Below are positions 1-16,829 of a stretch of DNA of 22,243 bases, piece by piece; within the stretch, counting starts at the first letter, position 1; each line of letters opens with the position of its first letter. Origin of the DNA: a virus. The notes beneath the pieces were generated by a model. The model was not told the DNA's origin. It saw only the letters and a list, made by a program, of their open reading frames with translations, and did no database searches. The position numbers and the translations under genes are program-made. Location: the IMG/VR virus record IMGVR_UViG_3300001341_000013, positions 1 through 22,243 of that record. The stretch is one strand, 5' to 3'.

Positions 1-12
1 GGGGGGGGCGGG

Positions 13-29
13 CCACGGCTTCGCCGTGG
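13..29. repeat. Short perfect inverted repeat (hairpin) at the window edge
   Basis: CCACGGC and GCCGTGG form a 7-bp stem around a 3-nt loop. An outer GGG (10-12) could pair with CCC (32-34) past a small bulge. No T-run follows on either strand, so it is not a typical intrinsic terminator. It follows a run of eight G at positions 1-8, which may be a sequence-end artefact. The remaining bases up to 157 hold no gene I can support. Confidence 0.4.
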
Positions 30-157
30 GTCCCATCAGCGCGAGATCGGGACTCTCTCTTGCCCCGACCATTTTTTGTCAGCGGCAAATCCACCCGATT
101 TGATTTTTCCCGGAAAGCCCGCCTTAATCTCCGCACCCCTACACCACGGAGCCCGCC

Positions 158-538
158 ATGAAGACGCACAGCAAACTTCTCCTTGGCCTCGCCCTTGCCG
201 GCGGCCTGACCGCCACTTCCCTCCCTTTCCTGCCCGCAGCATACGGCACAGAGCGACCCAGCCTGTTCCCCAACAGCTCGGCCGAAGACGTTCCCTTCAT
301 TTGGGACGCTTCACACATCGCCGCTTCCATGGTCGCGGATGTCGAGTGCGGCATCGACTGGGCTTCCGACTGGGTCTTCCGAGACGCCGGTCGCCTCTCC
401 GAGCACTACAATCTCGAAACCGATCTCATTATCGATATCTCCTCCGTCCTTGCCGACCGGCTGCGCGCCCGCATGTCTCCCGAGGCCGTTGCCGAGTTTT
501 GCACGACCTATGTCCGTGCCGCCGGCGATCCCACTTGA
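158..538 (+). CDS. Small exported protein of unknown function (signal peptide)
   Basis: This 126-residue protein begins with a classical Sec signal peptide: MKTHSK, a hydrophobic core rich in L, A and G, then a likely cleavage site after the AYG around residue 30. The mature part of about 95 residues is acidic and has two cysteines (in VECG and EFCTT) that could form a disulfide in the periplasm. The start is supported by GGAG at 148-151, six bases before the ATG. The gene stands alone: nothing precedes it in the window and a strong terminator follows, so it is transcribed apart from the packaging genes. I do not recognise a family. A phage-coded periplasmic protein could act in superinfection exclusion or lysis control, but that is speculation. 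It could also be a flanking host gene if this is a prophage. Confidence 0.7.
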   Translation: MKTHSKLLLGLALAGGLTATSLPFLPAAYGTERPSLFPNSSAEDVPFIWDASHIAASMVADVECGIDWASDWVFRDAGRLSEHYNLETDLIIDISSVLADRLRARMSPEAVAEFCTTYVRAAGDPT

Positions 539-618
539 TCCCCTGACTCGGCCCATATAACCTCACCCTAAGGGCTAGTCCCCCAGAAGAGACGATGCCC
601 TGCGCCCTACGTGCGCCT

Positions 619-660
619 GACCGCCCGCTGTGTTCCTACCGCAGCGGGCGGTCTTTTCTT
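619..660 (+). terminator. Strong rho-independent terminator
   Basis: A perfect 12-bp G+C-rich stem (619-630 with 642-653, GACCGCCCGCTG and its complement) closes an 11-nt loop. It is followed directly by TTTTCTT (654-660). It ends transcription reaching from the 158-538 gene and insulates the downstream packaging operon. The T-tract runs straight into the promoter-like element at 662. Confidence 0.9.
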
Positions 661-661
661 G

Positions 662-696
662 ACCGGACGACACCCTACCCCTCGCCCATCTAAAAT
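662..696 (+). promoter_or_regulatory. Candidate late promoter, site 1 of the ACCGGAYGACA family
   Basis: ACCGGACGACA lies at 662-672 and a -10-like TAAAAT at 691-696. The offset from motif start to hexamer is 29 nt. If the last six bases (ACGACA) are the -35 element, the spacer is 18 nt. Transcription would start at about 703, on the ATG of the next gene. The same motif recurs at 4706, 10016, 13185 and 18811. The promoter role is inferred from recurrence and position. Confidence 0.55.
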
Positions 697-702
697 TTGG
701 CC

Positions 703-1827
703 ATGCCGGTTTCCCCCTCATTTCGAACGGCCGGGTATGACCAACTTGCAAACATCGCCATTCCCGTTGGCCGAATCCTCCCGCCCATCTACGCCAAGAT
801 GGCGCGTGCAATCCTTTGGTCTCACCAAGACATCCCGATCCTGCACCCCAACAGCTATCGCGACATCCTTCTCGGCCCGGTGGCGCATAACGACCGAAGG
901 CCGTTTACTGACGCCGATCTGCCGACAAGAAGGCCCCACACCGTCTATCTCAGCTCATCCGAGCCGGGGGCCAAGGGTAAGCGTGGCAAGCGCGTCCCGG
1001 TCCATTTCAACTACGCCTCTCCCCACCTCGTTCCTGGCACCCACGCAGTCAAACCTGTTCGCTGCCTTGGCTGCGGCTCGACTGGCTTTGCCCCTCTTCG
1101 CTCCGTCGTCTCCCGGCACGCCTATTGCTCCCGTAGCTGTGGGCTGGCCCTCATCCTCTTCGTCCAAGACATGGCCACTCTCTACCGCTCGCCCTACGTC
1201 GTGCTCCCCCCGTCGGCGAAGGTCTTCCGATACCTCGTTCCTCACCACCACATGTACCCGAGAGGGAACGACAAGACCTTTCGCATCGTCGAATCTCGCT
1301 CGACCTCTTTCTCCCCATTCGTCCTCGCCGGCGATGTCTCTCGCCGGTTCGCACTCAACGTCTGCGGCTTTGCGGTCCCCCACCCGCGCCACCTCGTCGA
1401 ACACGTCCGGAGGCTTGTCTTGACCCACGATTCCAAAGCTGACGTTGGCGGACCACCCGCGCCCCTCAAAGAAGAGGAGGCCAAGCACCACGGCGCGCTT
1501 CCCGCGCCTCACATGACCATTGGCGCTCTCGACAATCCGATCACCCAGAAGGCTGCGCAAGTCGTTCTGGCTCACCTCGACACAGCCAATGATGTCTTGA
1601 AACCGACGCGCGCCGGCGCGGTGCGCGAGGCCGTCTGGTCCAAAGACCAGACCTCACTCTTCCTCGCCCTTCTCCGCCACACCGTGCCGACACTGTCGGC
1701 GTCGGTGAACATCACGCGCTCTGTCAGTCCCTCAGATCGCGATCCGGACGAGATGACCCAAGAGGAGATCATCAACACGGCCAAGGCCATCAAAAACCGC
1801 AACAAGCGCGAGGACGCCCCAAAGTGA
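703..1827 (+). CDS. Zinc-ribbon protein of unknown function, in small-terminase position
   Basis: A 374-residue protein, first gene of the packaging operon and two genes upstream of the large terminase. In the middle (near residues 120-150) is a four-cysteine zinc ribbon, CLGC then about 18 residues then CSRSC. It closely resembles the zinc ribbons of the HNH nuclease inside the terminase intein. The C-terminal third (ITQKAAQVVLAHLDTAN, then LFLALLRHTVP, then an acidic-basic tail) has the helical character of a packaging protein, and the position fits a terminase small subunit. I cannot show homology to a small-terminase family. ATG 703 was chosen over an in-frame TTG at 697. No Shine-Dalgarno is visible before either, which fits a leaderless transcript from the promoter at 662. 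The stop overlaps the next start (GTGA). Confidence 0.65.
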   Translation: MPVSPSFRTAGYDQLANIAIPVGRILPPIYAKMARAILWSHQDIPILHPNSYRDILLGPVAHNDRRPFTDADLPTRRPHTVYLSSSEPGAKGKRGKRVPVHFNYASPHLVPGTHAVKPVRCLGCGSTGFAPLRSVVSRHAYCSRSCGLALILFVQDMATLYRSPYVVLPPSAKVFRYLVPHHHMYPRGNDKTFRIVESRSTSFSPFVLAGDVSRRFALNVCGFAVPHPRHLVEHVRRLVLTHDSKADVGGPPAPLKEEEAKHHGALPAPHMTIGALDNPITQKAAQVVLAHLDTANDVLKPTRAGAVREAVWSKDQTSLFLALLRHTVPTLSASVNITRSVSPSDRDPDEMTQEEIINTAKAIKNRNKREDAPK

Positions 1828-2084
1828 GCAACATCCTCAATCGCAGCTCCACCAAGTCGACTGAAGACGGAGGCAACCGGGTGCCCTCCGACATGTCCCT
1901 GCGCGGCTTCGCCGAGGCCGTGGCCTCTTTCGATCTTGAGTCCGTCCCCCGCCATCGCCGCAAGCAGGCACTTCGCTCGCACGTCCTCAAGGTCATCTCG
2001 ATGCACGCCCGAGACAAGAACCTCGCTGACGCGATCCAGCGCTCTTACCTCTCCCACCTGGCGGCGTCACGAAAGAGCCACTGA
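1824..2084 (+). CDS. Small basic protein before large terminase, unknown function
   Basis: This 86-residue protein starts at a GTG whose last two bases lie in the preceding stop codon, indicating translational coupling. It ends five bases before the terminase ATG. The second half is helical and rich in Arg, His and Lys (SVPRHRRKQALRSHVLK, then a helix ending LAASRKSH), with no zinc motif or membrane segment. It may be the DNA-binding small terminase component or a terminase accessory factor, judged only by its place between 703-1827 and terL. Confidence 0.6.
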   Translation: MSNILNRSSTKSTEDGGNRVPSDMSLRGFAEAVASFDLESVPRHRRKQALRSHVLKVISMHARDKNLADAIQRSYLSHLAASRKSH

Positions 2085-2089
2085 CGCCC

Positions 2090-4732
2090 ATGGCCAAATC
2101 AGAAGAGGAAATCCTCCGCAGGGCCGCCTTGATGGCTGCCGCCAGTACGTCCTACTCGGCGTTCATCCAGTACATGTTTCCCGGACGGACCTTCCCGAAG
2201 TTTCAGCTCGATTTCATCGACCTGCTGGACCAGCTCGAAAAGCGCGCACTCGTCCACCCCACCACAGGCGAGCCGGTCTACAACCTCCTGATCAACATGC
2301 CGCCGCGCCACGCCAAGTCGCATTACGGCACCATTCTCTTTCCTGCCTACCTGATGGGCCGGAAGGCCACGCGCAAAACGATGGTCTCAGCATACAACTC
2401 CGATTTGGCCACCGACTTTGGCGGCGAAACCAAGTCCATTGTCACCAACCCTCGCTTCAAACAGGTCTTCCCGGACTTCAGGTTGTCCACCGACAGCCGC
2501 GCATCCGACACGTGGAAGACGAAACAGCGCGGCGCCTACTACGCCCTTGGCCTGAACGGCACGACTTCTGGCCGTCCGGCCAATTGTTTTGCGGCCGCCA
2601 CACTCGTCCTCACCCCGGACGGCCCGCGCGCGATCTCCCAGCTCCGCGCCGGAGACAAGGTCGTATCGTTCGACCACAGCACCAACGAAACCGTGATCAA
2701 AGAGATCGTTGCCACTCGCTCTCAGATGGCCGAAGTCCTTGATTACAAACTGCAAACCGGCGTAAAATTGACCTCAACGTCGGACCACCCCCTCTTCGAC
2801 ATCAAGTCGCGGCTTTATCTGCCGATGAGGGAATTTGCGGGTGGACAGTACAGCTCACCAATCGGTCTTAGCCGAGGCCAACGCGCGCAGCAGAGACCGC
2901 ATCTGTCAGCATTGTGGGGCGGCGTTCCGCGTCCCCTACCCCAGCGTTCGCAAGACGATGTGCTCAAGAGCGTGCAGAGGCGCCCGAAACGTCAAGCGCG
3001 CGGCGATTACGAAACAGTGCAAGGGGTGCGGCAACGAGTTTACCGGCCCACGCCACGCCACCAAAGATCGGCTGTACTGCACGAAGGCGTGCTGGGACGC
3101 GCACAAGCCCGTCACGCTTCAGCGTCTCCGCGAGAAAACGTGCCCGGTCTGCAAGGTGCGGTTTCAGCCCTTCAACAGGCATGCGGTGACCTGCTCGAAA
3201 GAATGCGCGCGCAAGCTCCATTCGCTTCGCATGAGCGGGCCGTTCAACCCACGGCATCGCAACGGCGCAACGCGCCAGAAGTACGCGCCACACTGGCGCC
3301 CTTTGGCCAAGGCAATCAGAGCGCGCGACGGCCACGAGTGTTTCCTGTGTCTCGCGCTGTCCCCGACCCACGATGTCCACCACATCGATCTGACCAAGTC
3401 GAACAACTGCGCGACGAATCTGATTTCCTTGTGCCGCCGGTGCCACACCATAGTGCATCGCTCGGACCACTTGGCCCTTGCATGGTCACCAGTGCTTCGG
3501 GCCGTCGCCGCGAGCCGGTCTTTGACATTCAAGTGGCCGATACAGCCAACTTCTTTGTTGGCGGTTTCCCCACCGGCGGCTTCGCCGAACCCGGTGCTCA
3601 TCCGACTTATGTGCTGGCGCACAACTGCCTTATCATCGACGACCCTATCAAATCCCGCCCTGACGCTGAGTCCCCCACCATCCGCCGCAACGTCTGGGAC
3701 TTCATCACCGGCTCGCTGTGGATGCGCCTCGAACCGGAAGAGGACGGCACGCCACCCATCCAGTTGATGACCCTGACGCGGTGGCACCCTGACGACCCCG
3801 CTGGCCGCCTCATGAAGCTCCCCGAGTGGGCCGCAGGCGAGTGGCACCATGTCTACTACCAAGGGCTCACCGAACTGCCGACCGATCCCGCAGAGCCGGA
3901 GAAGCGCCAGTATCGCGCCCTTTGGCCGGAGCGCTTCGATGTCCGCTACCTCCTCAAACAGAAGTCTCGCTCGGAGCGTGACTTCGCCGCTCTCTACCAG
4001 CAGCAGCCCCTCATCGAGGGCGGCAACATGCTCAAGCGCGCATGGTGGCAGTGGCTCCCTGAGGATTTCGATCCGCTCCTTCAGCGTTACCACTCGCTCC
4101 TCATCGCGGCCGATACCGCCTACAAGTCCGGAACCCGCAACGACTACTCGGCCTTGGCCATCGGCGGCATCACCCTCAAAGGCGACATCCACCTCCTCAA
4201 CATGGTCCGGGGCAAGTGGCAGCTCCCCGAACTTAAGCAGCGCCTTATCATCCTCAACAACCGCCTGCGTGGCCGTGGCCTTCGCGCGATCATCGTCGAA
4301 GACCACGCCTCTGGGCAGTCACTCGTCCAAGAGCTGCGTCGGGAGAGCGGCCTGTCAGTGATTGCGCGCCGCTGGCCGGGCGACAAGGTCACCCACCTTT
4401 CCTCAGTCCTTCCGCTGGTCGAGGGCGGCCGCGTCTTCCTGCCGCACAAGAACTCCACCAATCCGAACATGCACACGGAGTGGCTGCCGGACTTCCTTGC
4501 CGAGATCGAGCAGTTCCCGGCCGCCGCTTTCGACGATCAGGTCGATGCGTTCTCGCTCCTCGTCTACGAGCTTTCCAGAACCTCTATCACGGCCGAGATG
4601 ATGGAAGCTCAGTTCGCAGACTTCCAGCTCGCCTCATTGGCCAAGAAGCCCATCGAGCAGCTCGAAGGTCTCTACGGCCGCTCACTGGCCAAGCAGCTCG
4701 ACGTGACCGGACGACGGGGTTGGGGCGACTGA
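2090..4732 (+). CDS. terL: Terminase large subunit (TerL) containing an intein
   Basis: TerL is the ATPase/nuclease motor that packages phage DNA into proheads. The 880-residue precursor contains an intein at residues 166-512. Removing it leaves 533 residues, a normal TerL length. The ATPase P-loop-like motif is PPRHAKS (71-77). Walker B is LIIDDP (514-519), directly after the intein. The C-terminal RNase H-like nuclease shows Asp675 in LLIAADTAY, Glu737/Asp738 in IIVEDH, and FDDQVDAF (Asp815, Asp816, Asp819). The intein separates the P-loop from Walker B, so an unspliced protein should lack ATPase activity. The frame stays open across about 600 nt that also encode an HNH nuclease in the +1 frame. 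That middle stretch reads as an Arg/Pro/Gln/Ser-rich, probably disordered insert in the TerL frame. The call as TerL is firm; splicing is predicted from motifs. Confidence 0.95.
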   Translation: MAKSEEEILRRAALMAAASTSYSAFIQYMFPGRTFPKFQLDFIDLLDQLEKRALVHPTTGEPVYNLLINMPPRHAKSHYGTILFPAYLMGRKATRKTMVSAYNSDLATDFGGETKSIVTNPRFKQVFPDFRLSTDSRASDTWKTKQRGAYYALGLNGTTSGRPANCFAAATLVLTPDGPRAISQLRAGDKVVSFDHSTNETVIKEIVATRSQMAEVLDYKLQTGVKLTSTSDHPLFDIKSRLYLPMREFAGGQYSSPIGLSRGQRAQQRPHLSALWGGVPRPLPQRSQDDVLKSVQRRPKRQARGDYETVQGVRQRVYRPTPRHQRSAVLHEGVLGRAQARHASASPRENVPGLQGAVSALQQACGDLLERMRAQAPFASHERAVQPTASQRRNAPEVRATLAPFGQGNQSARRPRVFPVSRAVPDPRCPPHRSDQVEQLRDESDFLVPPVPHHSASLGPLGPCMVTSASGRRREPVFDIQVADTANFFVGGFPTGGFAEPGAHPTYVLAHNCLIIDDPIKSRPDAESPTIRRNVWDFITGSLWMRLEPEEDGTPPIQLMTLTRWHPDDPAGRLMKLPEWAAGEWHHVYYQGLTELPTDPAEPEKRQYRALWPERFDVRYLLKQKSRSERDFAALYQQQPLIEGGNMLKRAWWQWLPEDFDPLLQRYHSLLIAADTAYKSGTRNDYSALAIGGITLKGDIHLLNMVRGKWQLPELKQRLIILNNRLRGRGLRAIIVEDHASGQSLVQELRRESGLSVIARRWPGDKVTHLSSVLPLVEGGRVFLPHKNSTNPNMHTEWLPDFLAEIEQFPAAAFDDQVDAFSLLVYELSRTSITAEMMEAQFADFQLASLAKKPIEQLEGLYGRSLAKQLDVTGRRGWGD
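2585..3625 (+). mobile_element. Intein in TerL with out-of-frame nuclease insert
   Basis: A 347-codon intein in the terminase frame. It begins with Cys1 (CFAAATLVLTPDG, block A) and has the block-B motif TSTSDHPLFD with the Thr-x-x-Asp-His type signature. The splicing domain continues to about LPMREFAGG. Its C-terminal half reappears in the same frame near 3485 (SASGRRREPVFDIQVADTANFF, block F) and ends VLAHN followed by Cys+1 (3626-3628), the canonical His-Asn/Cys junction. All residues for class 1 splicing are present. It sits between GRPAN and CLIIDDP, at the TerL Walker B motif, a conserved site of the kind inteins favour. Between the two halves the DNA codes an HNH nuclease, but in the +1 frame. 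Confidence 0.92.
2841..3767 (+). CDS. HNH homing endonuclease nested out of frame in the TerL intein
   Basis: In the +1 frame relative to terL lie three tandem four-cysteine zinc ribbons (Cys22/25/41/45, 60/63/80/84, 101/104/118/122). They are followed by an HNH nuclease at residues about 150-206: RARDGHECFLC, His180-His181, Asn193, then LCRRCH and a final His206. This is a typical homing nuclease that would cut an intein-less terL allele. GTG 2841 is chosen because GAGGGA (2827-2832) lies eight bases upstream; TTG 2835 is possible but too close. A TGA at 2826-2828 closes this frame just before. No stop follows the HNH domain near 3458: the frame runs to 3767, adding about 100 residues of out-of-frame intein and extein sequence that look non-native. 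Alternatives are two compensating indels (real or sequencing error) in an originally in-frame nuclease. Alanine codons favour GCG here, unlike terL. Confidence 0.75.
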   Translation: MDSTAHQSVLAEANARSRDRICQHCGAAFRVPYPSVRKTMCSRACRGARNVKRAAITKQCKGCGNEFTGPRHATKDRLYCTKACWDAHKPVTLQRLREKTCPVCKVRFQPFNRHAVTCSKECARKLHSLRMSGPFNPRHRNGATRQKYAPHWRPLAKAIRARDGHECFLCLALSPTHDVHHIDLTKSNNCATNLISLCRRCHTIVHRSDHLALAWSPVLRAVAASRSLTFKWPIQPTSLLAVSPPAASPNPVLIRLMCWRTTALSSTTLSNPALTLSPPPSAATSGTSSPARCGCASNRKRTARHPSS

Positions 4733-4740
4733 AATACTAT
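4706..4740 (+). promoter_or_regulatory. Candidate late promoter, site 2 (upstream of portal operon)
   Basis: ACCGGACGAC (4706-4715; the final A of the consensus is G here) lies inside the last codons of terL. TACTAT (4735-4740) begins 29 nt after the motif start, exactly the offset of site 1. It would start a transcript near 4747, about 28 nt before the GTG of the small gene ahead of the portal gene. Confidence 0.45.
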
Positions 4741-4774
4741 CCGGCGCATCACACCAAGCCGACCAAGGTGCCCC

Positions 4775-4978
4775 GTGAAAAAGCCAATCCCTACAGTCGA
4801 CAGACCCGACCGGACCCCTGAACGCCTCAACCTTGAGTATGCCGCGACCACTGGCCCCGGCCGACTCAACGATCTTGGCCAAGGTACGCGCCAGCATGTC
4901 GAGTCTCTTCGTGAGCGGTACGAATCTCACCAAGTGTTCGCTCTCCCCGCAGACCCGGACTGCAAGACTGGGCGGTAA
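4775..4978 (+). CDS. Small hypothetical protein between TerL and portal
   Basis: A 67-residue, strongly charged protein starting at GTG (MKKPIPTVDRPDRTPERLN) and ending three bases before the portal ATG. AAGGTG, a few bases upstream, may serve as ribosome-binding site. It has no membrane segment, zinc site or familiar motif. Small ORFs between terminase and portal are common in podovirus-like genomes, and this one follows candidate promoter site 2. Function unknown. Confidence 0.55.
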   Translation: MKKPIPTVDRPDRTPERLNLEYAATTGPGRLNDLGQGTRQHVESLRERYESHQVFALPADPDCKTGR

Positions 4979-4981
4979 CCC

Positions 4982-6910
4982 ATGGCTTATCCGGCCTACA
5001 AGACGCTTGACCGCCCTGACGACCGGCGCGTGATCTTCAACCTAGGCGAGGTCCCGCAAGTCGCCAGCGCGCTCTTTGATTATGAGGACATCTCCGATGC
5101 CCTCAGCGAGGAGCAGGAGCAGCGTCTTGTCGATTACATCAAGGCTCTCGTCGACCTCTCTCATTCCAAAATCTCAAAGCGCTACGACCATTGGCGCGAG
5201 GCCGACGAGGCGCACGATGTCTATGTCCGCCCGGATACCACAGACTTCCGCGAAAAGGCGGTAATCGGCGACACGCGCGCCATCACCGAGACCGTTGTCA
5301 CCTACCAGATGGCGGCTCTGACGGGGCGCAACCCGATGTTTCAGCTTGAGGGTTTGAATGGAAAATCCCGCAAGCCCTCTCTCCTGCTCGAACGTGTCCT
5401 GCACCAGCATATGCGCCGCACCGCTGGCGAGGCGCGCATCGCCCAGTTCCTCCTCGACAGCTCGCGCTACGGCTTCGCTCCCACCAAGGTCACTTGGGAC
5501 GCCAATGGTCGCCAGAACTCTCTGATCAATGCCAACCCGCGCCTGACGTTTCCGGACCCCCGTCCCGGCTGGGGCAACTGGAACGATCAGTCCTTCGTTG
5601 TCCTCTCAGACTACAAGTCGACGCAGCAGCTCCTGCGTTCCGGCATGTATCCCAAGTTCAACAAGTACCCGGCCCTTCACGACGCGCAGCTCGGCAGCCG
5701 CCAATCATGGACGGCGCACAAGCACATCGCCGACGAGGGCCGTGGCCTTTCCATCGACCCCTCCGAGATCGATTCCAAGGACGCCCGCTTCTTCAAGACG
5801 GGTGACACCCACGTCGTGGACGAGGCGTGGTTCATCGTTTCAGGCTACGAGATCGGCCTCCCTCAAGTCGGCCTCGTCTGGATGGTGGCCACCGTCCTCA
5901 ACGAGAAGTTCATTATCCGCCTCCAGCTCTCGCCGTATGGCCAGCAGTTCCCAATGGTCTACGGCTCTCTCTACCACGACGTGCACAAGACGTGGGGCCA
6001 GTCGCTCTACGACCTCCTCCTGCCTCTCCACGACTTGGCCAATTGGCTCATGCGATCACGCATCGACAATGTGCGTGCGGCCCTCAACAACCTGATTTTC
6101 GTCGACCCCACCCAAGTCAACATCCCCGACCTGATCGACCGCAATCCGTGGGGCATTGTTCGCACGCTGCCTGGCGTAAAGCCGGGCGAAGGCGCCATGA
6201 TCGCAGACATCCCGGATGTCACCCGTGGCCACTGGAACGACATCGCCGCTCTATCCGATATCAAGCAGCGCGTCTCGGCCGCTTCCGATGCCCAGCAGGG
6301 CGTGCCCACTGCCGACGTTCGGTCGGCCACGGAGATCGCGCGCCTGACCCAGCTTGGCTCCCAGCGCCTTGGCGTCGCCTCTCGCATTACCTCGGCCATG
6401 TCGATCCGACCGATGGTCGAGATGATGGTTTCCAACATCCAAGACTCCCTCAGGTTCGAGGCATCCATTCGCGTCAACGATCAGATGCCCTCCGAACTCG
6501 TGGCCTTGGCCAAGGAGGACTATATCGACGTCGATGTCCAAGCCCTTCAGGGCGACATCAACTACCTCGTCATCGACGGCACCCTTCCCATTGAGCCGAC
6601 CCGCTCCCCAGAAGTGTGGGTCAACGTCCTTCAGGCGATGGCCCAGACAGGTCTCAACATGGAGTACCGGATGGGAGAGATCGTGGAAGAAGCGATCCGG
6701 GCGATGGGCGTTTCTGACCTCGACCGCTTCCGCATCTCCGACGAAGAGCGGGCGGCTAAGGGCCTCTCACCTAGCCAGCAACTGGCCATGATGGAGAAAG
6801 CGCGCGGCGCTTCGGTCATGCCTCAGGAACAGCTTTCCCAAGAGGTTCAGAAAGGCAACCTCGTTCCGTCCCGCGAGACCCTTCAGACCAAGGGAAGGGC
6901 CGCCGCATGA
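4982..6910 (+). CDS. Portal protein (head-tail connector)
   Basis: A 642-residue protein immediately after the packaging genes, with the size and character of podovirus portals. It has an early helical region (LSEEQEQRLVDYIKALVDLSHSK), a central mixed alpha/beta part with the motif-like stretch YGSLYHDVHKTWGQSLYDL, then a long helical part (DLANWLMRSRIDNVRAALNNL). A late Gln/Thr/Ala-rich segment (SAASDAQQGVPTADVRSATEIARLTQLGS) is typical of portal wing/stem regions. Portals form the dodecameric ring at one capsid vertex, bind TerL during packaging and hold the neck afterwards. The call rests on size, position and sequence character rather than one diagnostic residue. The end overlaps the next start (ATGA). 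Confidence 0.85.
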   Translation: MAYPAYKTLDRPDDRRVIFNLGEVPQVASALFDYEDISDALSEEQEQRLVDYIKALVDLSHSKISKRYDHWREADEAHDVYVRPDTTDFREKAVIGDTRAITETVVTYQMAALTGRNPMFQLEGLNGKSRKPSLLLERVLHQHMRRTAGEARIAQFLLDSSRYGFAPTKVTWDANGRQNSLINANPRLTFPDPRPGWGNWNDQSFVVLSDYKSTQQLLRSGMYPKFNKYPALHDAQLGSRQSWTAHKHIADEGRGLSIDPSEIDSKDARFFKTGDTHVVDEAWFIVSGYEIGLPQVGLVWMVATVLNEKFIIRLQLSPYGQQFPMVYGSLYHDVHKTWGQSLYDLLLPLHDLANWLMRSRIDNVRAALNNLIFVDPTQVNIPDLIDRNPWGIVRTLPGVKPGEGAMIADIPDVTRGHWNDIAALSDIKQRVSAASDAQQGVPTADVRSATEIARLTQLGSQRLGVASRITSAMSIRPMVEMMVSNIQDSLRFEASIRVNDQMPSELVALAKEDYIDVDVQALQGDINYLVIDGTLPIEPTRSPEVWVNVLQAMAQTGLNMEYRMGEIVEEAIRAMGVSDLDRFRISDEERAAKGLSPSQQLAMMEKARGASVMPQEQLSQEVQKGNLVPSRETLQTKGRAAA

Positions 6911-7203
6911 GCAAGACGCGACAGAACGCAATCTCGGACAAGGACCGGCTCTACAAACTCGAACAGGAATCCATCGCTCTCCGTAACGATCTTGAGGCGA
7001 GCCGAGACAAGATTGCCGATCTGAGAAAGCAATTGGCCAGTACGCCCGACTTCGCGGTCGCGCTCGATGCCGCGATCCACCAGTTCTCCGAACGCCTCGC
7101 TGTCCTTGAACGTAAGGTCGATAAGGAATTGATCGCCAGCCAGACCCGAGCGGCCGTGGCCAAAATCATGCGCGAGGAGCAGGCCAAGGAGCAGGCCAAA
7201 TGA
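6907..7203 (+). CDS. Small coiled-coil protein
   Basis: A 98-residue, highly charged, almost entirely helical protein with heptad-like spacing (YKLEQESIALRNDLEAS, then FSERLAVLERKVDKELIAS) and a tail of Glu/Ala/Lys repeats. The start ATG overlaps the portal stop, and its own stop overlaps the fibre gene start (ATGA), so the three genes are translationally coupled. It has no signal peptide or membrane segment. It may be a structural or chaperone protein acting with the portal or the fibre. Function unknown. Confidence 0.7.
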   Translation: MSKTRQNAISDKDRLYKLEQESIALRNDLEASRDKIADLRKQLASTPDFAVALDAAIHQFSERLAVLERKVDKELIASQTRAAVAKIMREEQAKEQAK

Positions 7204-8909
7204 CCAAACCTCGCTCCGAGCAAATCCGGTTCCTCTCGGCGGCCACTGGCACTGAAGTCATTCTCGATGCCTACATTGAGTCTGCCGAGCTGGGTGGCCG
7301 CACCATCGCCGACATCCTTGGTGACATCTTCGATGCTACCGGCACGTTCCGTGCCGACATCTTTGAGTTTCGCGAAGACCCCCTAACTCCTGGCATCCTC
7401 CAATCTCGTGTCGGCGACTTTGTCGACCCAAACGCCGGTTGGACAAACCTCTCCAACACGGATTTCCAATCCTTCGTCACCTCTTGTCAAACGGCTGCGT
7501 CTGAAGCCGATGCTGCGTGGGCCGCGACCGAAGCCATCTACGACCAGACGGTGATCGTCTACAACGACACTATCGCTGTGCGCGGCCAAGCCATCGTGGC
7601 CAAGGATGCTTCCATTGCCGCTCAGGGCCTTTCTGAGGCGGCCCGCGATGCCGCCGGAGATGCCGCCACTTTGGCCGGCGGTCATGCGGCCACCACCCAT
7701 GGCTATATGACGACGACCGAGGGTTATCGCGATCAGACGCTTGGCTACCGCAATGAGTCGGAGGGCTTCAAAAACGATGCGGAAGCCGCCGCGATTGTCT
7801 TCGCTACGCACATCGCGGACACCGCCAATCCTCATGCAGTGACCAAAGCCCAAGTTGGTCTCGGCCTTGTCGACAACACAGCGGATGCCAACAAGCCGAT
7901 TTCATTGGCGACCCAGAACGCGCTCAACGCCAAGTTTGATATCTCCGGCGGGACCCTGAGCGGCCCCCTTCTTCGCGACGCAAACTTCAAAATCGATCTC
8001 GACGGCGAAGATCCGACTCTCACCTTGGACTTGGCGGACAAGATCGTCTTTGACCGGTCGCACGACACGCTGGGGGTCGTGATCAACGACCTCTATCGTC
8101 TGGCCATCAGCCCGACCAATGTGCACGTCTATGGGTCAATGAGCACCGACGGCATTCTGTCGCCGTCCGCTTTGAACGTGCAATCGGATGCAGACGTTGC
8201 AGGTCTGCTGAGACGGGCCGGCAATACGGTTTGGGATGCCAGCAACTTTGATCCAGCTCTGAAAGCCGATCTCTCCGGCGCGACCTTCACTGGCCCAATC
8301 GTTGCGCAGGACGATCCAGCGCACGGCAAAGCCATGGTCTATCCGGGCTCGGCCATCCAGCCCGGCTTCATAAACTTCAACAAGCCGGACGGCAGCAACT
8401 TCGGCTACGTCGGCTGGTCAGACGGGGACGACTGGCTTCAGCTCTGGCACTACACCAGCACGCAAAAGGGCTGGCGCACCAACGGCATTCTCCGTGCCGA
8501 TGGCGTCCCGGCCTTTTATGCCTTCAAGGCCGGCGGCGCCCAAAGCTCTCTCGGCGTGGTCGAGTTCTCCGGCATAGGCAACAATAATGGCGGCTACTAC
8601 AACGGATCGACCTATCGATTCACTGCGCCGTGTGCTGGAAACTATGTGTTTCACGCCAACGTGTTCATCCAGTTCGCGTCACCCTCTGCCGGCTTCGGAG
8701 CTTGGTATTTTCGAAAGAACGGGGTGACCTTCGGCGGCACTCACCACACAAGCATCCTCACCAACACCCAGTCATACCAGATGGTTCCCGGCAGCATCAT
8801 CATGCAGCTCGAACCCGGTGACTATGTCGACATCTATTTTGGCGTCCAGACGAACACCTGGGTCTACAACAGCTCGTTCTCACAATTCTGCGGATACCTG
8901 ATCGGATAA
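7200..8909 (+). CDS. Tail fibre protein with C-terminal C1q-like domain
   Basis: A 569-residue fibre. Residues about 28-50 (ESAELGGRTIADILGDIF, then DATGTF) match the N-terminus of the fibre-like protein at 16830-18350, suggesting a shared virion-anchoring module. An Ala-rich helical segment follows (about 95-200). Residues about 204-235 carry the NPHAVTKAQVGLG / VDNTADANKPIS motif common in phage tail fibres. Beta-rich shaft repeats come next. The last 135 residues look like a C1q/TNF-type jelly roll: PAFYAF, NNNGGYYNGSTYRFTAP, GNYVFHANV, LEPGDYVDI, ending SFSQFCGYLIG. Such trimeric tips bind receptors, so this is the likely host-recognition end. It starts at an ATGA overlap with the coiled-coil gene. 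Confidence 0.85.
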   Translation: MTKPRSEQIRFLSAATGTEVILDAYIESAELGGRTIADILGDIFDATGTFRADIFEFREDPLTPGILQSRVGDFVDPNAGWTNLSNTDFQSFVTSCQTAASEADAAWAATEAIYDQTVIVYNDTIAVRGQAIVAKDASIAAQGLSEAARDAAGDAATLAGGHAATTHGYMTTTEGYRDQTLGYRNESEGFKNDAEAAAIVFATHIADTANPHAVTKAQVGLGLVDNTADANKPISLATQNALNAKFDISGGTLSGPLLRDANFKIDLDGEDPTLTLDLADKIVFDRSHDTLGVVINDLYRLAISPTNVHVYGSMSTDGILSPSALNVQSDADVAGLLRRAGNTVWDASNFDPALKADLSGATFTGPIVAQDDPAHGKAMVYPGSAIQPGFINFNKPDGSNFGYVGWSDGDDWLQLWHYTSTQKGWRTNGILRADGVPAFYAFKAGGAQSSLGVVEFSGIGNNNGGYYNGSTYRFTAPCAGNYVFHANVFIQFASPSAGFGAWYFRKNGVTFGGTHHTSILTNTQSYQMVPGSIIMQLEPGDYVDIYFGVQTNTWVYNSSFSQFCGYLIG

Positions 8910-8921: not shown

Positions 8922-9557
8922 ATGAACCACAACATCACCCTGACGGATGGCCAGAAGCTGGCCCTTGAACTGGACATGGCCGATGTGGTCGAGTTCATCG
9001 ACAATTGGGTCAACTCGCGCCTCGACATCGCCGCCAACACGATCCGCAATGCCGATTGGTACGGTGAGGCGGTGGCCGGCGTCGTCGCCGATGGTGGCGA
9101 TCCAGTGGACCCGTTCGTGGTCGTCCTGAAGGCGCGCACTCTTGGCCTTGTCGAGACTGCCCAAGAACGCGCAGATCGTCTTGCCAGTGAAGCGCCGCCG
9201 ATCTCCGGGCCATCGCCGGAAGAAATCATCGCTTCGCGTGTCAATGGTCACGCCATCGTCCTCAAGGTCGATGCCGTCAACGCGCTTCGCACCGATGGCG
9301 GCGAGCCGTTCCCAGTTTCATCTGCCGGTATCGTTCTGATCCGGGACAACTATACAGATCGGATCAACGAGCTTTCAGCGAAGACGCTTATCGGCGACAC
9401 GCTTACAGCCGAGGAGGTCGCCGAGGTATCCCGCATCAAGGCTGGGTTCGCCTTCTTCAAAGGGGTCGACACAGCCGCGCAGGCAATCATCACGGCTGGC
9501 GATCCCGCTGACCCGATAGAGGCTGACCCACGATGGCCGACGCCTCCGACGCCCTGA
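8922..9557 (+). CDS. Hypothetical protein downstream of tail fibre
   Basis: A 211-residue acidic protein with AAGGCGAG a few bases before its ATG. The N-terminal half is helical (GQKLALELDMADVVEFIDNW, then SRLDIAANTIRNADWYGEAV). The C-terminal half has a beta-like segment (HAIVLKVDAVNALRT) and a helix (LSAKTLIGDTLTAEEVAEVS), ending in a proline-rich tail. Position directly after a fibre gene suggests a fibre-associated protein or fibre-assembly chaperone, but I see no chaperone signature. Its end overlaps the next gene by 25 bases in another frame. Confidence 0.65.
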   Translation: MNHNITLTDGQKLALELDMADVVEFIDNWVNSRLDIAANTIRNADWYGEAVAGVVADGGDPVDPFVVVLKARTLGLVETAQERADRLASEAPPISGPSPEEIIASRVNGHAIVLKVDAVNALRTDGGEPFPVSSAGIVLIRDNYTDRINELSAKTLIGDTLTAEEVAEVSRIKAGFAFFKGVDTAAQAIITAGDPADPIEADPRWPTPPTP

Positions 9558-10009
9558 CCTGCACCCTCGCTTTCTATCGCGGCTCAAGCCGTCCGACCGA
9601 CTGGATTATCCAGATATGGACATCCTCGCCCTACAGCCATGTCGAGTTGGCCACCGATCTCAAGCGCAACGGCAAAGGCGAGATCATTTCCTTCCGTGGC
9701 CATTCCGCCTCGCCGCGCGACGGGGGCGTCCGCTCGACCCACATTGACGCGAAGCCGGGCCACTGGGACTTCATCGAAATCCCCGGCAACGAAGCCGAGG
9801 CCGTCCAATTCATCGAAGCTTACCACGGCTACCCCTACGACTGGCCAAACCTCTTCACCCGGCACATCCTGAAGATCGGTCCCCTCCCCTACAAGCCGTT
9901 CCGTCGCATCGCCTTCCTGTGCTCCGAAATCGTCCCCATGGCCGTCGGCCTTGGCCATCTCACCCATCTCGATCCCGGCGCCATCCATGACGTGCTGCTG
10001 AGCCGCTAA
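9533..10009 (+). CDS. Permuted NlpC/P60-like (YiiX/papain-fold) cysteine peptidase or amidase
   Basis: A 158-residue protein with the signature of circularly permuted NlpC/P60 (YiiX/YaeF-like) enzymes: His36 in the early SPYSHVELA block and Cys130 in the late FLCSEIV block, the reverse of the usual Cys-then-His order. FYRGSSRPTDWIIQIWT before the His and GYPYDWPNLF between the blocks fit this fold. Family members hydrolyse peptide, amide or ester bonds in cell-wall or lipid substrates. Immediately upstream of the spanins and endolysin it may help degrade peptidoglycan at lysis or during DNA entry. No signal peptide or membrane segment is visible. The start overlaps the end of 8922-9557. Confidence 0.75.
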   Translation: MADASDALTCTLAFYRGSSRPTDWIIQIWTSSPYSHVELATDLKRNGKGEIISFRGHSASPRDGGVRSTHIDAKPGHWDFIEIPGNEAEAVQFIEAYHGYPYDWPNLFTRHILKIGPLPYKPFRRIAFLCSEIVPMAVGLGHLTHLDPGAIHDVLLSR

Positions 10010-10015
10010 CCGATA

Positions 10016-10049
10016 ACCGGACGACAGTTCTATAGCCCGCTGCCATTTT
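10016..10049 (+). promoter_or_regulatory. Candidate late promoter, site 3 (lysis genes)
   Basis: ACCGGACGACA is at 10016-10026 in the 46-nt gap between genes. CATTTT (10044-10049) is a weak -10-like hexamer at offset 28. The downstream TTTGGCC just before the ATG matches site 1, where TTTGGCC ends directly at the ATG. Predicted initiation near 10056 would make the spanin transcript leaderless. An alternative TATAGC at 10031 is too close to the motif. Confidence 0.45.
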
Positions 10050-10055
10050 GGCCGC

Positions 10056-10328
10056 ATGTTCGGATTGCCCTCAATCCCTGCCGCGCTGCTCCGCCCGCAG
10101 ACCTTCGTGGTCGGCGCTGCGATCCTGTTTGTCCTTTACGTGTACCTGATTGCAATCCCCTCAGCCGAGCAGCGCGGCAAAGCGGCGGCCTTTTTGGCCG
10201 CCTCTGAGCGCGCGCTTTCCCTCATCCAAGAGAAGAACGAGAACGCCGATGAAATCCGCGACCTTTCTGCCTCTGATCTCTGCCGTGAGCTTGTCCCTGA
10301 CGGCATGCCAGACGACGCCTGCGACTGA
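10056..10328 (+). CDS. Inner-membrane spanin subunit (Rz-like)
   Basis: A 90-residue protein with one N-terminal transmembrane segment (residues about 16-35, TFVVGAAILFVLYVYLIAIP). A charged helical periplasmic domain follows (RGKAAAFLAASERALSLIQEK). This is the i-spanin topology: cytoplasmic N-terminus, periplasmic coiled coil that pairs with the o-spanin to fuse inner and outer membranes at the last step of lysis. Identification is supported by the overlapping lipoprotein gene at 10249 in the +1 frame, the classic Rz/Rz1 arrangement, and by the endolysin downstream. No Shine-Dalgarno precedes the ATG. A small single-span holin is the main alternative. Confidence 0.8.
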   Translation: MFGLPSIPAALLRPQTFVVGAAILFVLYVYLIAIPSAEQRGKAAAFLAASERALSLIQEKNENADEIRDLSASDLCRELVPDGMPDDACD

Positions 10329-10461
10329 AGGCGCCGGCTTCGTCCTGATGACGCCCCAGCCGCCGACCGCAGCGTACATCTCGCGCAACGATCGCCAGTT
10401 TGCCGAGCAGGTCGCGGTGAACAACCGGACCTGTGGAGAGGCTCCGGCGTGCGAAAAGTGA
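10249..10461 (+). CDS. Outer-membrane lipoprotein spanin (Rz1-like)
   Basis: A 70-residue lipoprotein starting at ATG 10249 inside the i-spanin gene, in a different frame, overlapping it by 80 bases. It has a short signal sequence (MKSATFLPLISAVSLSLTAC) with a clear lipobox, LTAC, so the mature protein starts at Cys20, becomes lipidated and goes to the outer membrane. The mature part includes a short proline-containing stretch (TPQPPTAA), typical of o-spanins, and two further cysteines near the C-terminus (TCGEAPACEK). A longer open frame extends upstream, but the lipobox position fixes this start. With the i-spanin it would span the periplasm. Confidence 0.85.
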   Translation: MKSATFLPLISAVSLSLTACQTTPATEGAGFVLMTPQPPTAAYISRNDRQFAEQVAVNNRTCGEAPACEK

Positions 10462-10555
10462 TCAAGCGTTCCCGTCAGCAGACAAAGAAGCCGACGCATG
10501 GGCTCAAGCTCAGGCGCCTCCTCCCTCGCTCGGCCAAACGTCCCCGGAGAAAGTG

Positions 10556-11422
10556 ATGAACCTGCTCACCGAAGCCCAGCTCTACGAGATTGCCGGCGTC
10601 CGCTACCGCAGCGGCAACCGTGGGCGAAACCAGCCCAAGATCGTCAGCGAAACGGTTCGATACATCAACGAGTACGGCCACCACTTTGACCTCGACAATC
10701 TCCTCAACTTGTCCCGCTTCCTTGGCCAGACGGCGGTCGAATCCGCCTACTTCTCGACGACAACCGAGTTCGCATCCGGCAAAGACTATGAGGGCCGCAG
10801 CGATCTGGGCAACACACAGCCGGGGGACGGCAGACGCTTCAAGGGGCGCGGCCTAATCCAGACGACTGGCCGTTACAATACGACCAAGTTTACCAAGTGG
10901 GCCAAGGCCGTGCTGAGCCGCTTCGTCTCCAAAGCCATCCCCGACTTCGTCAAGAACCCAAAAGAGCTGGCTAATTTTCCATGGGCCTTTTTCTCGGCGG
11001 CTTATTACTGGTCCGAGGGCAACCCCACGCGCCGCTCTCTCAACCGGCTGGCCCAACAGGGCAATGACGAGATGATCACGCGCCGCATCAATGGCGGCCT
11101 CAACCATTTCTCTGAGCGCCTCGATGCGACCGACCGCGCAGCCCTCGTCCTCCTTGGCTACAAGACCGACAAGGGCGGCATCCGTGCTTTCCAAGAAAAC
11201 GCTGGCATCACGGTCGACGGCCTCACTGGGCCAGAGACGCGCAACGCCCTGATCTCGGCCCTCAAAGCGGCCAATCGACCCAAACCTGTGTCCACGCCGG
11301 GCCCCGAGAAGCCAGCTCCGCAACCGGCCAAAGAACCGGCCAAGCAACCCCAGCCGGCCGTGAGGCGCAACAACCCCCTGGCCGCCATCATCGAAGCAAT
11401 CCTGAACCTGTTCCGCCGATGA
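10556..11422 (+). CDS. Endolysin: GH19 chitinase-like muramidase with peptidoglycan-binding domain
   Basis: A 288-residue lytic enzyme. The GH19-type catalytic domain spans residues about 1-195. The likely catalytic Glu62 is in FLGQTAVESAYF and Glu71 in TTEFASG, followed by the family stretch YEGRSDLGNTQPGDG and FKGRGLIQTTGRYN. Residues about 205-235 resemble a PG_binding_1 domain (GIRAFQENAGITVDGLTGPE). A Pro/Lys-rich linker (243-270) leads to a short amphipathic C-terminal helix (NPLAAIIEAILNLFRR). It would cleave glycan strands of peptidoglycan. ATG 10556 is preferred, with GGAG at 10546-10549. The frame is open to a GTG at 10433, which would add 41 low-complexity residues overlapping the o-spanin. 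No signal peptide, so export needs a holin, none of which is evident. Confidence 0.92.
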   Translation: MNLLTEAQLYEIAGVRYRSGNRGRNQPKIVSETVRYINEYGHHFDLDNLLNLSRFLGQTAVESAYFSTTTEFASGKDYEGRSDLGNTQPGDGRRFKGRGLIQTTGRYNTTKFTKWAKAVLSRFVSKAIPDFVKNPKELANFPWAFFSAAYYWSEGNPTRRSLNRLAQQGNDEMITRRINGGLNHFSERLDATDRAALVLLGYKTDKGGIRAFQENAGITVDGLTGPETRNALISALKAANRPKPVSTPGPEKPAPQPAKEPAKQPQPAVRRNNPLAAIIEAILNLFRR

Positions 11423-11730
11423 AGTCAGTCACCGCCCACCGCCCCGTTCACGCGATCAGGCGCGATCTCGAAGAGATCGACGCCCTCGCTGCTTCGCGCG
11501 GCTGGTCTCTCCTTTCCAACATCCTCGACCGCGAGGCCGACTCCATCATCAAAGCGATGACCGGCAGCGTCCACACGGCCAAGGAGATCCTCGACTTCCA
11601 GCGTGCTGGCCTGCGCGCCGTCAAGCTCTTGCAGTCCCTTCCTGAAACACAGGCCCTCATCCTCAAAAACGAACTCGAACTTGCGGAAGCCCATGAGGGC
11701 GCCAAGGAGAAGACCGATGTCTCTGAATAA
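11419..11730 (+). CDS. Small helical protein of unknown function
   Basis: A 103-residue, wholly helical, charged protein (IRRDLEEIDALAASRGWSLL, then LDFQRAGLRAVKLLQSLP) with no membrane segment, so it is not an obvious holin. Its ATG overlaps the endolysin stop (ATGA). Its last 14 bases overlap the scaffold start, and its coding sequence contains the scaffold ribosome-binding site. The position at the junction of lysis and capsid genes suggests a head-assembly helper. No family recognised. Confidence 0.65.
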   Translation: MKSVTAHRPVHAIRRDLEEIDALAASRGWSLLSNILDREADSIIKAMTGSVHTAKEILDFQRAGLRAVKLLQSLPETQALILKNELELAEAHEGAKEKTDVSE

Positions 11731-12712
11731 TGAACAGCGCAAAGCCATTGCTGCCATCGACGGGCCGCCGCCGGAAGAGGCCGGCCAAGGCGGCACGCCG
11801 CAGCCTCAGGAAACGGCGCAAGGCCAAGCCCAGTCTGACGGAGCCCCGAAATCCGAGTCCGAAAAGCTGCGCGAAGAAGCCTTTATCGAGATCAACCTAG
11901 GCAATGGCCAGACGCGGAAGATGACCGAGTCCCAGATCGCTGGGATGGCGGCACGTTACACCGGCCTCAACCAGAAGAACGCCCAGATGAAGCCGGTCAT
12001 CGCATTGGCTGAAAAGATCATGCAGGCCAACCCGAACCTGACGCCGGCCCAGCTTGGCCAAGAGTTGGCTGAGTACGCTCAGCAGCGCATGTCGGGAGGA
12101 AGCCCACAGAACACGCCACCACGTCCGAACGAACCGGCCCCAAACTCCAACTCCGGCACACCGTCCGTCCCTTCAGATGACGATCTGGCCAAGTGGGAAA
12201 ACGAGAACGCCTCCACCCTGCCGCCCGGCTACAGGCAGATGCAGGGCAACATGAACCAGATGGCTCAACAGATGAGCCGGATGACTGAAGCCATGCAGCA
12301 GGTTCTTGCCCAGACGACTGGCCAAGTCGAAGCAGCTCGCATGGCCCAACAGGGCGCTCGCCAGGTACAGGGCCAATCTGTCCAGCAGACAATTGGCAAC
12401 AACCTTGACGCTGCCCAGCAGCGCCTTCAGCTCCCCACTGACATGGCCAGCCCCTTCATGGAGTTTGCCGCACAGCGTGGCTACACGATGGAAGACTTTG
12501 TTGATCCCGATCTGACCCTGACGGTGATGAACGATTTCAAGAACCATCTGTCCTCAGGTGAGATGGACCGTCTTCGTGGCATTCAAGAGCGCCGCCAAGC
12601 CTTCACCACTCCTACCGGTGGAGCGCCTTCCGGTCCTCAGGGACAGCCGAGCGAGGAGCAGGCTGACTTTGACGCCTTTGCCGGAAGGATGGCTGAGAAG
12701 CGGCGCCTTTAG
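11717..12712 (+). CDS. Capsid scaffold-like protein
   Basis: A 331-residue protein directly upstream of the major capsid gene (an HNH gene intervenes). It has the usual scaffold make-up: acidic, rich in Gln, Met, Ala and Pro, no cysteine, with a disordered N-terminus (PPPEEAGQGGTPQPQ), a helical core (MKPVIALAEKIMQANPNLTP), a Gln/Met-rich coiled-coil region (MNQMAQQMSRMTEAMQQVL) and a charged C-terminal helix (FDAFAGRMAEKRRL) of the kind that binds capsid protein. Scaffolds guide prohead assembly and then leave. ATG 11717 is chosen for its AAGGAGA (11704-11710). The open frame extends upstream to 11603, but that part overlaps the previous gene. Its 3' end overlaps the antisense HNH gene by about 100 bases. 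Confidence 0.8.
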   Translation: MSLNNEQRKAIAAIDGPPPEEAGQGGTPQPQETAQGQAQSDGAPKSESEKLREEAFIEINLGNGQTRKMTESQIAGMAARYTGLNQKNAQMKPVIALAEKIMQANPNLTPAQLGQELAEYAQQRMSGGSPQNTPPRPNEPAPNSNSGTPSVPSDDDLAKWENENASTLPPGYRQMQGNMNQMAQQMSRMTEAMQQVLAQTTGQVEAARMAQQGARQVQGQSVQQTIGNNLDAAQQRLQLPTDMASPFMEFAAQRGYTMEDFVDPDLTLTVMNDFKNHLSSGEMDRLRGIQERRQAFTTPTGGAPSGPQGQPSEEQADFDAFAGRMAEKRRL

Positions 12713-13103
12713 ATCGCATCATCCATCTCGGCTTCCAATATGGGTGCACGACGGGGGCGTTAACGCCGAGCATTGCGTAGGCCGTCTCCCGGCTCTTTTC
12801 CGTCGTGCAGTTTCCAAAAACGCCTGCGCGCCGCAGGACCCCGACGATCCTGCGAAACTGTCTCGGATTGGCCTTCACGGCCCCACCGAACCAGAACTTG
12901 GGATGCGTGTCGCCCTTTGCTTCATTGCACTTCCGGCACACCGCCACATAAAACCTGCCGCCCATCGCCTGCGGGATGACGTGATCCCTCGTCGGAAAAG
13001 CCCATTGGCTTTTTGTTGACATTCTGGTTCCGCAGTATGGGCATTCTTGTCCGTCATGCGCGCGAACCCATGCGCTCAATCCGGTCGGGCCTTTCCTCGC
13101 CAT
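12612..13103 (-). CDS. Free-standing HNH endonuclease on the opposite strand
   Basis: The only gene on the minus strand, a 163-residue HNH nuclease. It has CPYCG (first zinc knuckle), TRDHVIPQAMGG (catalytic Asp-His) and CRKCNEAKGD (second knuckle with the HNH Asn), giving a beta-beta-alpha metal fold with zinc pairs. A conserved-looking region continues through PRQFRRIVGVLRRAGVF. ATG at 13103 has AGGAGA about nine bases upstream on its strand. The last roughly 30 codons lie antisense to the scaffold C-terminus and look like antisense sequence, so the original stop may have been lost. Such nucleases behave as selfish homing elements inserted between phage structural genes. This one belongs to a different HNH type from that in the intein. 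Confidence 0.8.
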   Translation of the reverse strand: MARKGPTGLSAWVRAHDGQECPYCGTRMSTKSQWAFPTRDHVIPQAMGGRFYVAVCRKCNEAKGDTHPKFWFGGAVKANPRQFRRIVGVLRRAGVFGNCTTEKSRETAYAMLGVNAPVVHPYWKPRWMMRSKGAASQPSFRQRRQSQPAPRSAVPEDRKALHR

Positions 13104-13184
13104 GCTGGGCTGTCTCCTATGGCAGCACCCTCCCAGCAACAGCCTATGTCGTCCTCAAGATGATTTGCAATGGTCTTCAAGTTG

Positions 13185-13216
13185 ACCGGATGACAGATTC
13201 CCCAGAAGCGCATAAT
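13185..13216 (+). promoter_or_regulatory. Candidate late promoter, site 4 (capsid), in a 275-nt non-coding leader
   Basis: ACCGGATGACA (13185-13195, one mismatch to the other sites) is preceded by TTG as at site 1. CATAAT (13211-13216) lies at offset 26. Predicted initiation near 13223 leaves a leader of about 155 nt before the capsid ATG. The whole stretch 13104-13378 holds no credible ORF; it carries this element and the inverted repeat at 13210-13278. The antisense HNH gene ends just upstream, so this promoter would restore sense transcription for the capsid gene. Confidence 0.45.
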
Positions 13217-16827: not shown

Positions 16828-16829
16828 CC

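Follow-up and report, generated by a model that had tools for sequence, protein, structure and literature searches.

The large terminase (TerL) gene of the IMG/VR virus record IMGVR_UViG_3300001341_000013, analysed here over positions 1-22,243 of that record (22,243 bases, hereafter the window), contains an intein and, overlapping it in another reading frame, the open reading frame (ORF) of an HNH nuclease (Table 1). The intein interrupts the gene immediately upstream of CLIIDDP, which is Walker B by motif, and the intein-free TerL of Roseobacter phage CRP-810 reads SGRPANLLLVDDP at the N-extein junction. Both Hint_2 and Terminase_6C were above the Pfam cut-offs in the TerL frame of the window. 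An initial annotation, made from the sequence alone, had placed TerL, the splicing junctions, the TGA, the GAGGGA and the GTG correctly, as rechecking confirmed, and had rightly described the terminase frame as free of stops across the nuclease. Its overall span of 2585-3767 holds for the start of the intein, but the intein ends at 3625 and it is the nuclease ORF that overruns it, by about 140 nt, into the C-extein. It is very likely that this locus is a mobile TerL intein made of two overlapping genes, yielding a cis-spliced TerL and a separate homing nuclease from the +1 frame.

Table 1. Coordinates of the TerL gene, its intein and the overlapping nuclease gene in the window.
Feature	Position	Strand	Basis and remarks
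TerL ORF	2090-4732	+	880 amino acids; no internal stops
TerL N-extein	2090-2584	+	ORF and TerL homology; last residues SGRPAN
Intein	2585-3625	+	347 codons, Cys1 to Asn, TerL frame
Splicing blocks A and B	2585-2788	+	Cys1 2585-2587; TSDH 2777-2788; invariant C, T and H alignment columns
Putative internal ribosome-binding site and start	GAGGGA 2827-2832; GTG 2841-2843	+	inferred from anti-Shine-Dalgarno pairing
HNH nuclease ORF	2841-3767	+	+1 frame relative to TerL; GTG 2841, TGA 3765-3767; homologues
Three zinc-ribbon-like Cys clusters	about 2904-2975, 3018-3092, 3141-3206	+	CxxC...CxxxC pairs in alignments
HNH core	3324-3458	+	CxxC...HH...N...CxxCH
Splicing blocks F and G	3518-3628	+	His-Asn 3620-3625, Cys+1 3626-3628; from alignments
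TerL C-extein	3626-4732	+	Walker B onwards, RNase H-like domain; Pfam Terminase_6C 8.1e-7

The base composition of the window changes frame with the nuclease. G+C content peaks at TerL codon position 3 in the N-extein (0.80), at position 1 over 2841-3475 (0.79) and again at position 3 in the C-extein (0.82); TerL codon position 1 is the third position of the nuclease codons, so the periodicity tracks the nuclease frame over about 630 bases. Synonymous shuffling of the nuclease interval (2841-3476), which preserved the nuclease protein and its codon usage, led to an expectation of 4.8 stops in the TerL frame, where none is seen (P=0.0023), and resampling of codons from four phage coding stretches led to an expectation of 6.5 (P=0.0007). 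The initial annotation had cautioned that long shadow ORFs occur elsewhere in the window and that openness alone proves little, a fair point that is answered by the G+C shift, by these tests and by the relatives.

A tblastn search of 50,697 phage records gave 20 with a related nuclease. In three of them it lies within a gene annotated as TerL; these records represent Gordonia phage Clown (gp5; two records) and Synechococcus phage S-EIVl, and both phages have the nuclease at +1 within an uninterrupted terminase coding sequence. Four IMG/VR scans with this nuclease (the window and S-EIVl sequences and two alignments) and one with a second nuclease type supplied most of the 165 surveyed loci (L004, L005, L007-L107 and L188-L249; the intein-free C-extein loci L108-L187 are excluded). 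In 96 of the 165, intein flanks are present on both sides, the nuclease is at +1 to each flank and the host ORF is continuous; these nested loci come from 67 records (29 are second fetches of a contig, counted by hand) and form 43 clusters at 95% nucleotide identity, with G+C contents of 0.32-0.66 and two sequenced isolates among them. The remaining loci comprise four with the C-flank alone (also +1), two at +2 (one contig, L060/L188), four that are split, 56 with no intein flank by profile, a bin that includes the in-frame case L221 and the methylases L061, L070 and L073, and three without the nuclease at threshold (L189, L190 and L191). As the counts rest on the best 80 of 288 confirmed loci in one scan, they are lower bounds on how common the form is. 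A second batch of 58 loci contributed 25 nested and 33 other loci, the four split ones among the latter; the scan of genome contigs returned one weak relative, which is not nested, and the first two scans of viral contigs matched a duplicate contig of the window alone. Judged by these comparisons, the nested arrangement is common to dozens of other, mostly uncultivated, phages, and the same frame relation at both boundaries, which the initial annotation had suggested looking for in homologous TerL inteins, does recur in the relatives.

The terminase identity of the hosts was assessed by Pfam in 14 nested members besides the window (L004, L005, L010, L012 and ten later ones), and the remaining hosts were called terminases by tblastn or by eye. 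Terminase_6C was above its cut-off in 10 of the 14 (L004, L005, L192, L193, L195, L200, L211, L228, L240 and L248), below it in L012 and L199, and absent at E 0.01 in L010 and L226, and an intein or Hint model was above cut-off in 11, with sub-threshold matches in L195, L199 and L200. The intein precedes Walker B in most nested members and is nearer the N-terminus in L228 and L240. By eye, the TerL ORFs of L217 (1228-4833) and L193 (2201-5104) appear to contain, besides the nested intein, another one closer to the P-loop. In a nuclease tree made by a quick method, the nested form clusters, with 5 changes against 23.3 after shuffling. Its 73 rows are 43 nested, 22 free-standing (from a hand-picked 27, the others dropped for short matches), four split, three methylase and one in-frame; with unresolved deep branches and many long rows, it is compatible with single or multiple origins of +1 nesting.

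Selection on both frames, for which the initial annotation had proposed a synonymous-constraint test, is visible across the family. In 41 representatives (the 43 minus L063 and L196, which have a stop in the nuclease frame), the host frame contains 0 stops against 439.4 expected from synonymous shuffling, and the third frame contains 517. T at the nuclease third position before AA, AG or GA occurs in 0/912 cases against 1166/2868 elsewhere (in an earlier 21 representatives), which restates the absence of stops. Among 27 nuclease relatives outside the TerL set, used as a control, an ORF in another frame spans the match in four (L060, L061, L070 and L073) and in none of the other 23; in the four split loci the overlapping frames hold 23-35 stops (one frame) and 4-16 (the other).

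The divergence of 11 loci of the S-EIVl clade changes frame in the same region. At TerL codon positions 1/2/3, the N-extein and C-extein show.148/.077/.550 and.153/.069/.517, the N-half and C-half of the intein.265/.168/.321 and.171/.114/.450, and the nuclease stretch.508/.298/.241, so that the most variable codon position shifts inside the intein and then reverts. This indicates that the nuclease body is under selection in the +1 frame and that the TerL frame there is little constrained beyond its openness. At the edges of the overlap (about 2128-2300 and 2929-2982 in L005, the locus of S-EIVl), every codon position is conserved, a pattern that fits dual coding across block B and ahead of block F. 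The +1 peptide over block B is itself conserved in this clade. Pairwise position counts between the window and L192 or L211 approach saturation and are weakly informative; the window has no codon-position divergence profile of its own because its nearest relatives are too distant.

The host frame encodes the splicing domain. Class 1 inteins have a nucleophilic Cys1, a TxxH motif in block B, a terminal Asn and a nucleophilic +1 residue, and the window has C, TSDH, HN and C at these places (the blocks are named by the standard letters). In the 43 representatives Cys1, Asn and Cys+1 are each present in 43/43 and TxxH in 42/43; the Cys1 motif of L010, for example, is CLCYNTEV, and a penultimate His is found in 21/43. 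A profile of 16 TerL-frame intein sequences matched NrdJ-1 (1.4e-18), the Spl DnaX mini-intein (7.1e-17) and others (54 sequences including bacterial intein-like (BIL) domains), and its matches to solved inteins and intein-like domains are confined to residues 3-113 or 304-342. In an AlphaFold model from the same alignment, block means of the predicted local distance difference test (pLDDT) are 73-94 for residues 11-90 and 85-86 for residues 311-330, and values are below 50 for residues 93-203 and 207-302, where the nuclease overlaps. The best Foldseek matches of this model are inteins and intein-like domains, with low whole-chain TM-scores because most of its residues are unfolded in the model. 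A Hint fold is thus predicted from both ends of the insert, with about 200 probably disordered residues between them, in agreement with the spliced TerL with a disordered linker that the initial annotation had envisaged. About 15 extra residues lie between blocks F and G of the window intein at about 3566-3610 (GGFAEPGAHPT and neighbours); they are absent from 16 other aligned inteins, and AlphaFold is unsure there.

The nuclease frame encodes an HNH protein with features of homing endonucleases, namely the HNH motif, zinc-binding Cys residues, profile matches in the PDB and HNH relatives in phages. R162, C167, C170, H180, H181, N193, C198 and C201 are invariant over 21 aligned rows. Pfam with the single nuclease-frame sequence gave just sub-threshold NinG, zinc-ribbon and HNH_3 matches, and the 21-sequence profile matched solved structures of HfmIscB (6.6e-8) and the phage HNH protein 5h0m (6.5e-5), with C2H2 zinc-finger proteins also among its matches at 1.2e-7 and weaker. 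Together with the conserved Cys pairs, these results bear out a nuclease in the +1 frame between the splicing blocks. Of the three zinc ribbons and complete HNH first described, the HNH is upheld by the invariant columns; the ribbons are so labelled by motif, and the first Cys cluster is not common to all relatives. Conservation stops at about 3475, and the remainder, which reaches into the C-extein, is a low-confidence tail in the nuclease model, whose block means are 72-97 over residues 1-230 except for 131-150 (54-62).

The nuclease has a putative, apparently usable internal start, clearest in L192, which together with the selection on both frames supports the proposal in the initial annotation that it is made separately. 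In the window, a +1-frame TGA (2826-2828) lies 12 nt ahead of the GTG, with GAGGGA 8 nt upstream of that codon and a further +1-frame start codon, TTG, at 2835. The pairing of this site with the anti-Shine-Dalgarno sequence (-6.1 kcal/mol) has a strength that 4.7% of the TerL positions sampled also reach. The exteins of L192 share 46-47% identity with those of the window; in L192 the +1 stops are followed directly by GACGAGGTAACCC (GACGAGG) and then by an ATG that precedes the first ribbon Cys by five residues, and the pairing at this corresponding place is stronger. Across the 43 representatives, the best Shine-Dalgarno (SD) site before a nuclease-frame start has a median of -5.8 against -3.3 and -3.3 in the other two frames, and was the stronger in 15/19 and 25/36 comparable loci (Wilcoxon P=0.004 and 0.0008), a comparison that is suggestive only since the frames differ in their number of start codons. 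No candidate start was present in the stretch examined in L016. Avoidance of +1 stops upstream of the nuclease start was mostly not significant among 19 loci (P<0.05 in two), and L008, a copy of the window, has more stops there than expected. A GTG with an SD at position 2291 of S-EIVl was rejected as a general start, being good in one genome and not conserved across the clade. It is plausible that the overlapping arrangement would uncouple nuclease expression from that of TerL.

From the computed anatomy, the conserved frame relation, the stop avoidance, the switch of selected frame in the S-EIVl clade and the predicted folds, we infer how the element would splice, be expressed and move. Translation in the TerL frame would give a precursor in which the two parts of a Hint domain are joined by about 200 little-constrained, probably disordered residues; these parts would fold together, excise the intein and ligate a functional TerL. 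Initiation at an internal start just past block B would yield, in the +1 frame, a separate zinc-ribbon HNH nuclease, which would most likely cut intein-free terL near the insertion site, with repair copying the intein in. Selection holds the TerL frame free of stops under the nuclease and otherwise lets most of it drift.

Several observations weigh against this interpretation. The penultimate His is absent in 22 of the 43 representatives, and the predicted TM-scores (pTM) of both models are low (0.40 for the intein, with a mean pLDDT of 53, and 0.38 for the nuclease, with values below 50 for residues 234 to 301); Foldseek gave no match to the nuclease model at E up to 0.001. Stop avoidance is weak individually in two high-G+C representatives (L004, P=0.05; L200, P=0.08). 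In L221 (2670-5219), a TerL intein recognised by eye after the flank profile had missed it, a related HNH is in frame. Start codons vary between representatives, and several of these, such as L194, L195 and L226, have virtually no SD. In the S-EIVl clade no strong conserved start was found; the invariant +1 TTG codons there may be just a by-product of the TerL residues encoded, and the +1 frame comes under constraint about 160 nt upstream of the best SD.

The S-EIVl clade, in which the +1 frame is also open from near Cys1, is where programmed +1 frameshifting inside the intein, giving a fusion of the TerL N-part, Hint-N and HNH and no separate nuclease, finds its support; constraint this far upstream may leave room for an earlier start or for such a shift. 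Against it, stops interrupt the +1 frame of the window (TGA 2826), L010 and L192 as far as block B or slightly beyond and leave a short stretch in which to shift, and in the window and L192 an SD and a start codon stand at that very place. Frameshifting is unlikely in these two, and its probability as a general account is small. Two compensating indels, which the initial annotation had weighed, or an assembly error could have displaced an ordinary in-frame HNH domain, and the in-frame L221 lends this some colour; moreover, the 100% identity of the window to part of a 68,309-base IMG/VR contig (compared over 1-8729 and 9000-22243) is weak evidence against misassembly because that contig may stem from the same sample or reads. 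The relatives, however, which were expected to reveal continuous in-frame fusions if this had happened, are instead at +1 at both boundaries with L221 alone in frame; the same phase recurs in 43 clusters over the G+C range given above, sequenced isolates included, the absence of host-frame stops against 439 expected requires long selection, and the G+C periodicity of the window follows the nuclease frame. This explanation is highly improbable, and the overlap of nuclease and intein is neither an indel pair nor chance.

It is also very unlikely that the nuclease frame is expressed while the insert stays unspliced in TerL as a tolerated loop, the fate suggested for the insertion in the ShiLan methylase. 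Insertions that carry an HNH out of frame and lack a splicing domain do exist, both in ShiLan (PMC11855218) and in the methylases L061, L070 and L073, but here Hint parts with their key residues flank the nuclease and the insert directly precedes Walker B of the packaging ATPase. An element removed at the RNA level, that is, a group I or II intron with an HNH ORF, has a familiar precedent in that HNH ORFs are common in phage introns; yet no Rfam match was found at E up to 1 within 2400-3900, neither the stop avoidance in the host frame nor the conserved splicing residues would be expected, and its probability is negligible.

Intein-free alleles and decayed copies accompany the two-gene intein among the relatives. 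Of at least 600 matches to the S-EIVl C-extein, the best 80 loci all lack an intein at that site; 18 intein-free junctions read KRSHL and then V, and intein alleles read KRSHL, the intein and then C. The exteins of the nearest intein-free allele, L108, are 98% and 95% identical to those of S-EIVl. In L063 and L066 (intein of 211 codons) the insert is 126 codons shorter than that of L033 and the nuclease frame has a stop, while the TerL frame is open, which indicates that the nuclease can be lost with the host frame intact. These two loci represent a decay stage of the element. Such mobility and decay fit the homing cycle known for inteins.

Related architectures are found alongside the nested form. 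A second HNH type lies in the +2 frame of a TerL intein in L060 (3060-3737; the contig of L188) and L189 (3486-4073), at another site (DDVD-C...TN-T), with nucleases 45% identical and host-frame stops avoided (P=0.018 and 0.00015, respectively); in Pfam, L060 falls slightly short of the cut-offs for both terminase and intein, and L189 was judged by eye. C5-cytosine methylases in L061 (3465-3959), L070 (3234-3695) and L073 (3234-3692) have an HNH at +1, avoid stops in the host frame and gave no intein match in Pfam; as these come from uncultivated viruses, ShiLan-like elements may reach beyond mycobacteriophages. In L207, L212, L213 and L229 the terminase gene is split at the intein and the HNH is a separate ORF between the halves, which in L207 and L213 are in different frames and would need trans-splicing. 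HNH ORFs of the same family in L206 (1701-2903), L219 (3276-4496) and L227 (3213-4472) continue in frame into a conserved C-terminal domain that looks cupin-like.

Inteins are usually described as one polypeptide with splicing and endonuclease domains, and in the window and the 96 two-flank loci the endonuclease is instead at +1 to the splicing domain and would be outside its polypeptide. Actinobacteriophage inteins of 'non-canonical architecture' are, by its title, the subject of a 2025 preprint by Gosselin et al., which may report part of what is described here, such as overlapping-frame inteins in actinophages; Clown infects Gordonia. According to Kelley et al. 2016 (PMC5050341), mycobacteriophage TerL inteins lie in the ATPase, one site (TerL1-e) being in Walker B; five of five tested terminase inteins spliced and two of two tested for cleavage cut intein-less targets. 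The endonuclease of those inteins, as described there, is a domain of the intein, whereas that of the window is coded in another frame. The 2025 ShiLan paper (PMC11855218) describes an out-of-frame HNH with zinc fingers in a phage methylase insertion, in the third frame of a methylase that its authors call non-essential, and reports that no splicing domain was found; the same methylase was treated in an earlier paper (PMC9957025). As in that account, the host frame of the window is open through the insertion, a zinc-finger HNH lies in another frame and the distribution is disjunct; unlike it, the HNH is in +1, is enclosed by a Hint intein with conserved splicing residues, and has TerL as host gene. 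Among the open-access matches listed, out-of-frame HNH insertions appeared in that paper and in a genome announcement that mentions one (PMC12613952). HNH proteins of the ShiLan type are detectable homologues of that of Clown (Mantra 4e-7, ShiLan 8e-5). The 'fractured genes' of split inteins, reportedly described by Dassa et al. in 2009, are said to have an endonuclease gene between the N-half and the C-half, and the four split loci resemble them in order, with an HNH of the same family as in the window. The window differs in that its host gene is a single continuous ORF, for which cis-splicing is expected.

Elsewhere in the window, a chitinase/endolysin-like gene (10433-11422; PHROG 14712, E 5.5e-50) sits between a portal-like gene (4982-6910) and the major head protein gene (13367-14557).

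It is likely that these loci represent widespread dual-coded phage terminase inteins, in which splicing domain and homing nuclease are overlapping genes and the nuclease is translated internally and homes outside the precursor, that they form a series with in-frame, ShiLan-type and split inteins, and that at least two frame relations, +1 and the +2 of L060 and L189, had separate origins. Annotation misses such nucleases, as the Clown and S-EIVl records list just a terminase there, and the idea lends itself to direct testing in the versions of Clown, S-EIVl and L192. A single mobile element seems to retain both splicing and nuclease by overlap, a natural case of long dual coding in which selection can be measured for each frame. 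This offers a reason for an out-of-frame HNH insertion in a packaging ATPase gene, since splicing would remove the nonsense linker, and hints at a path that links inteins of the fused and split kinds with free-standing nucleases.

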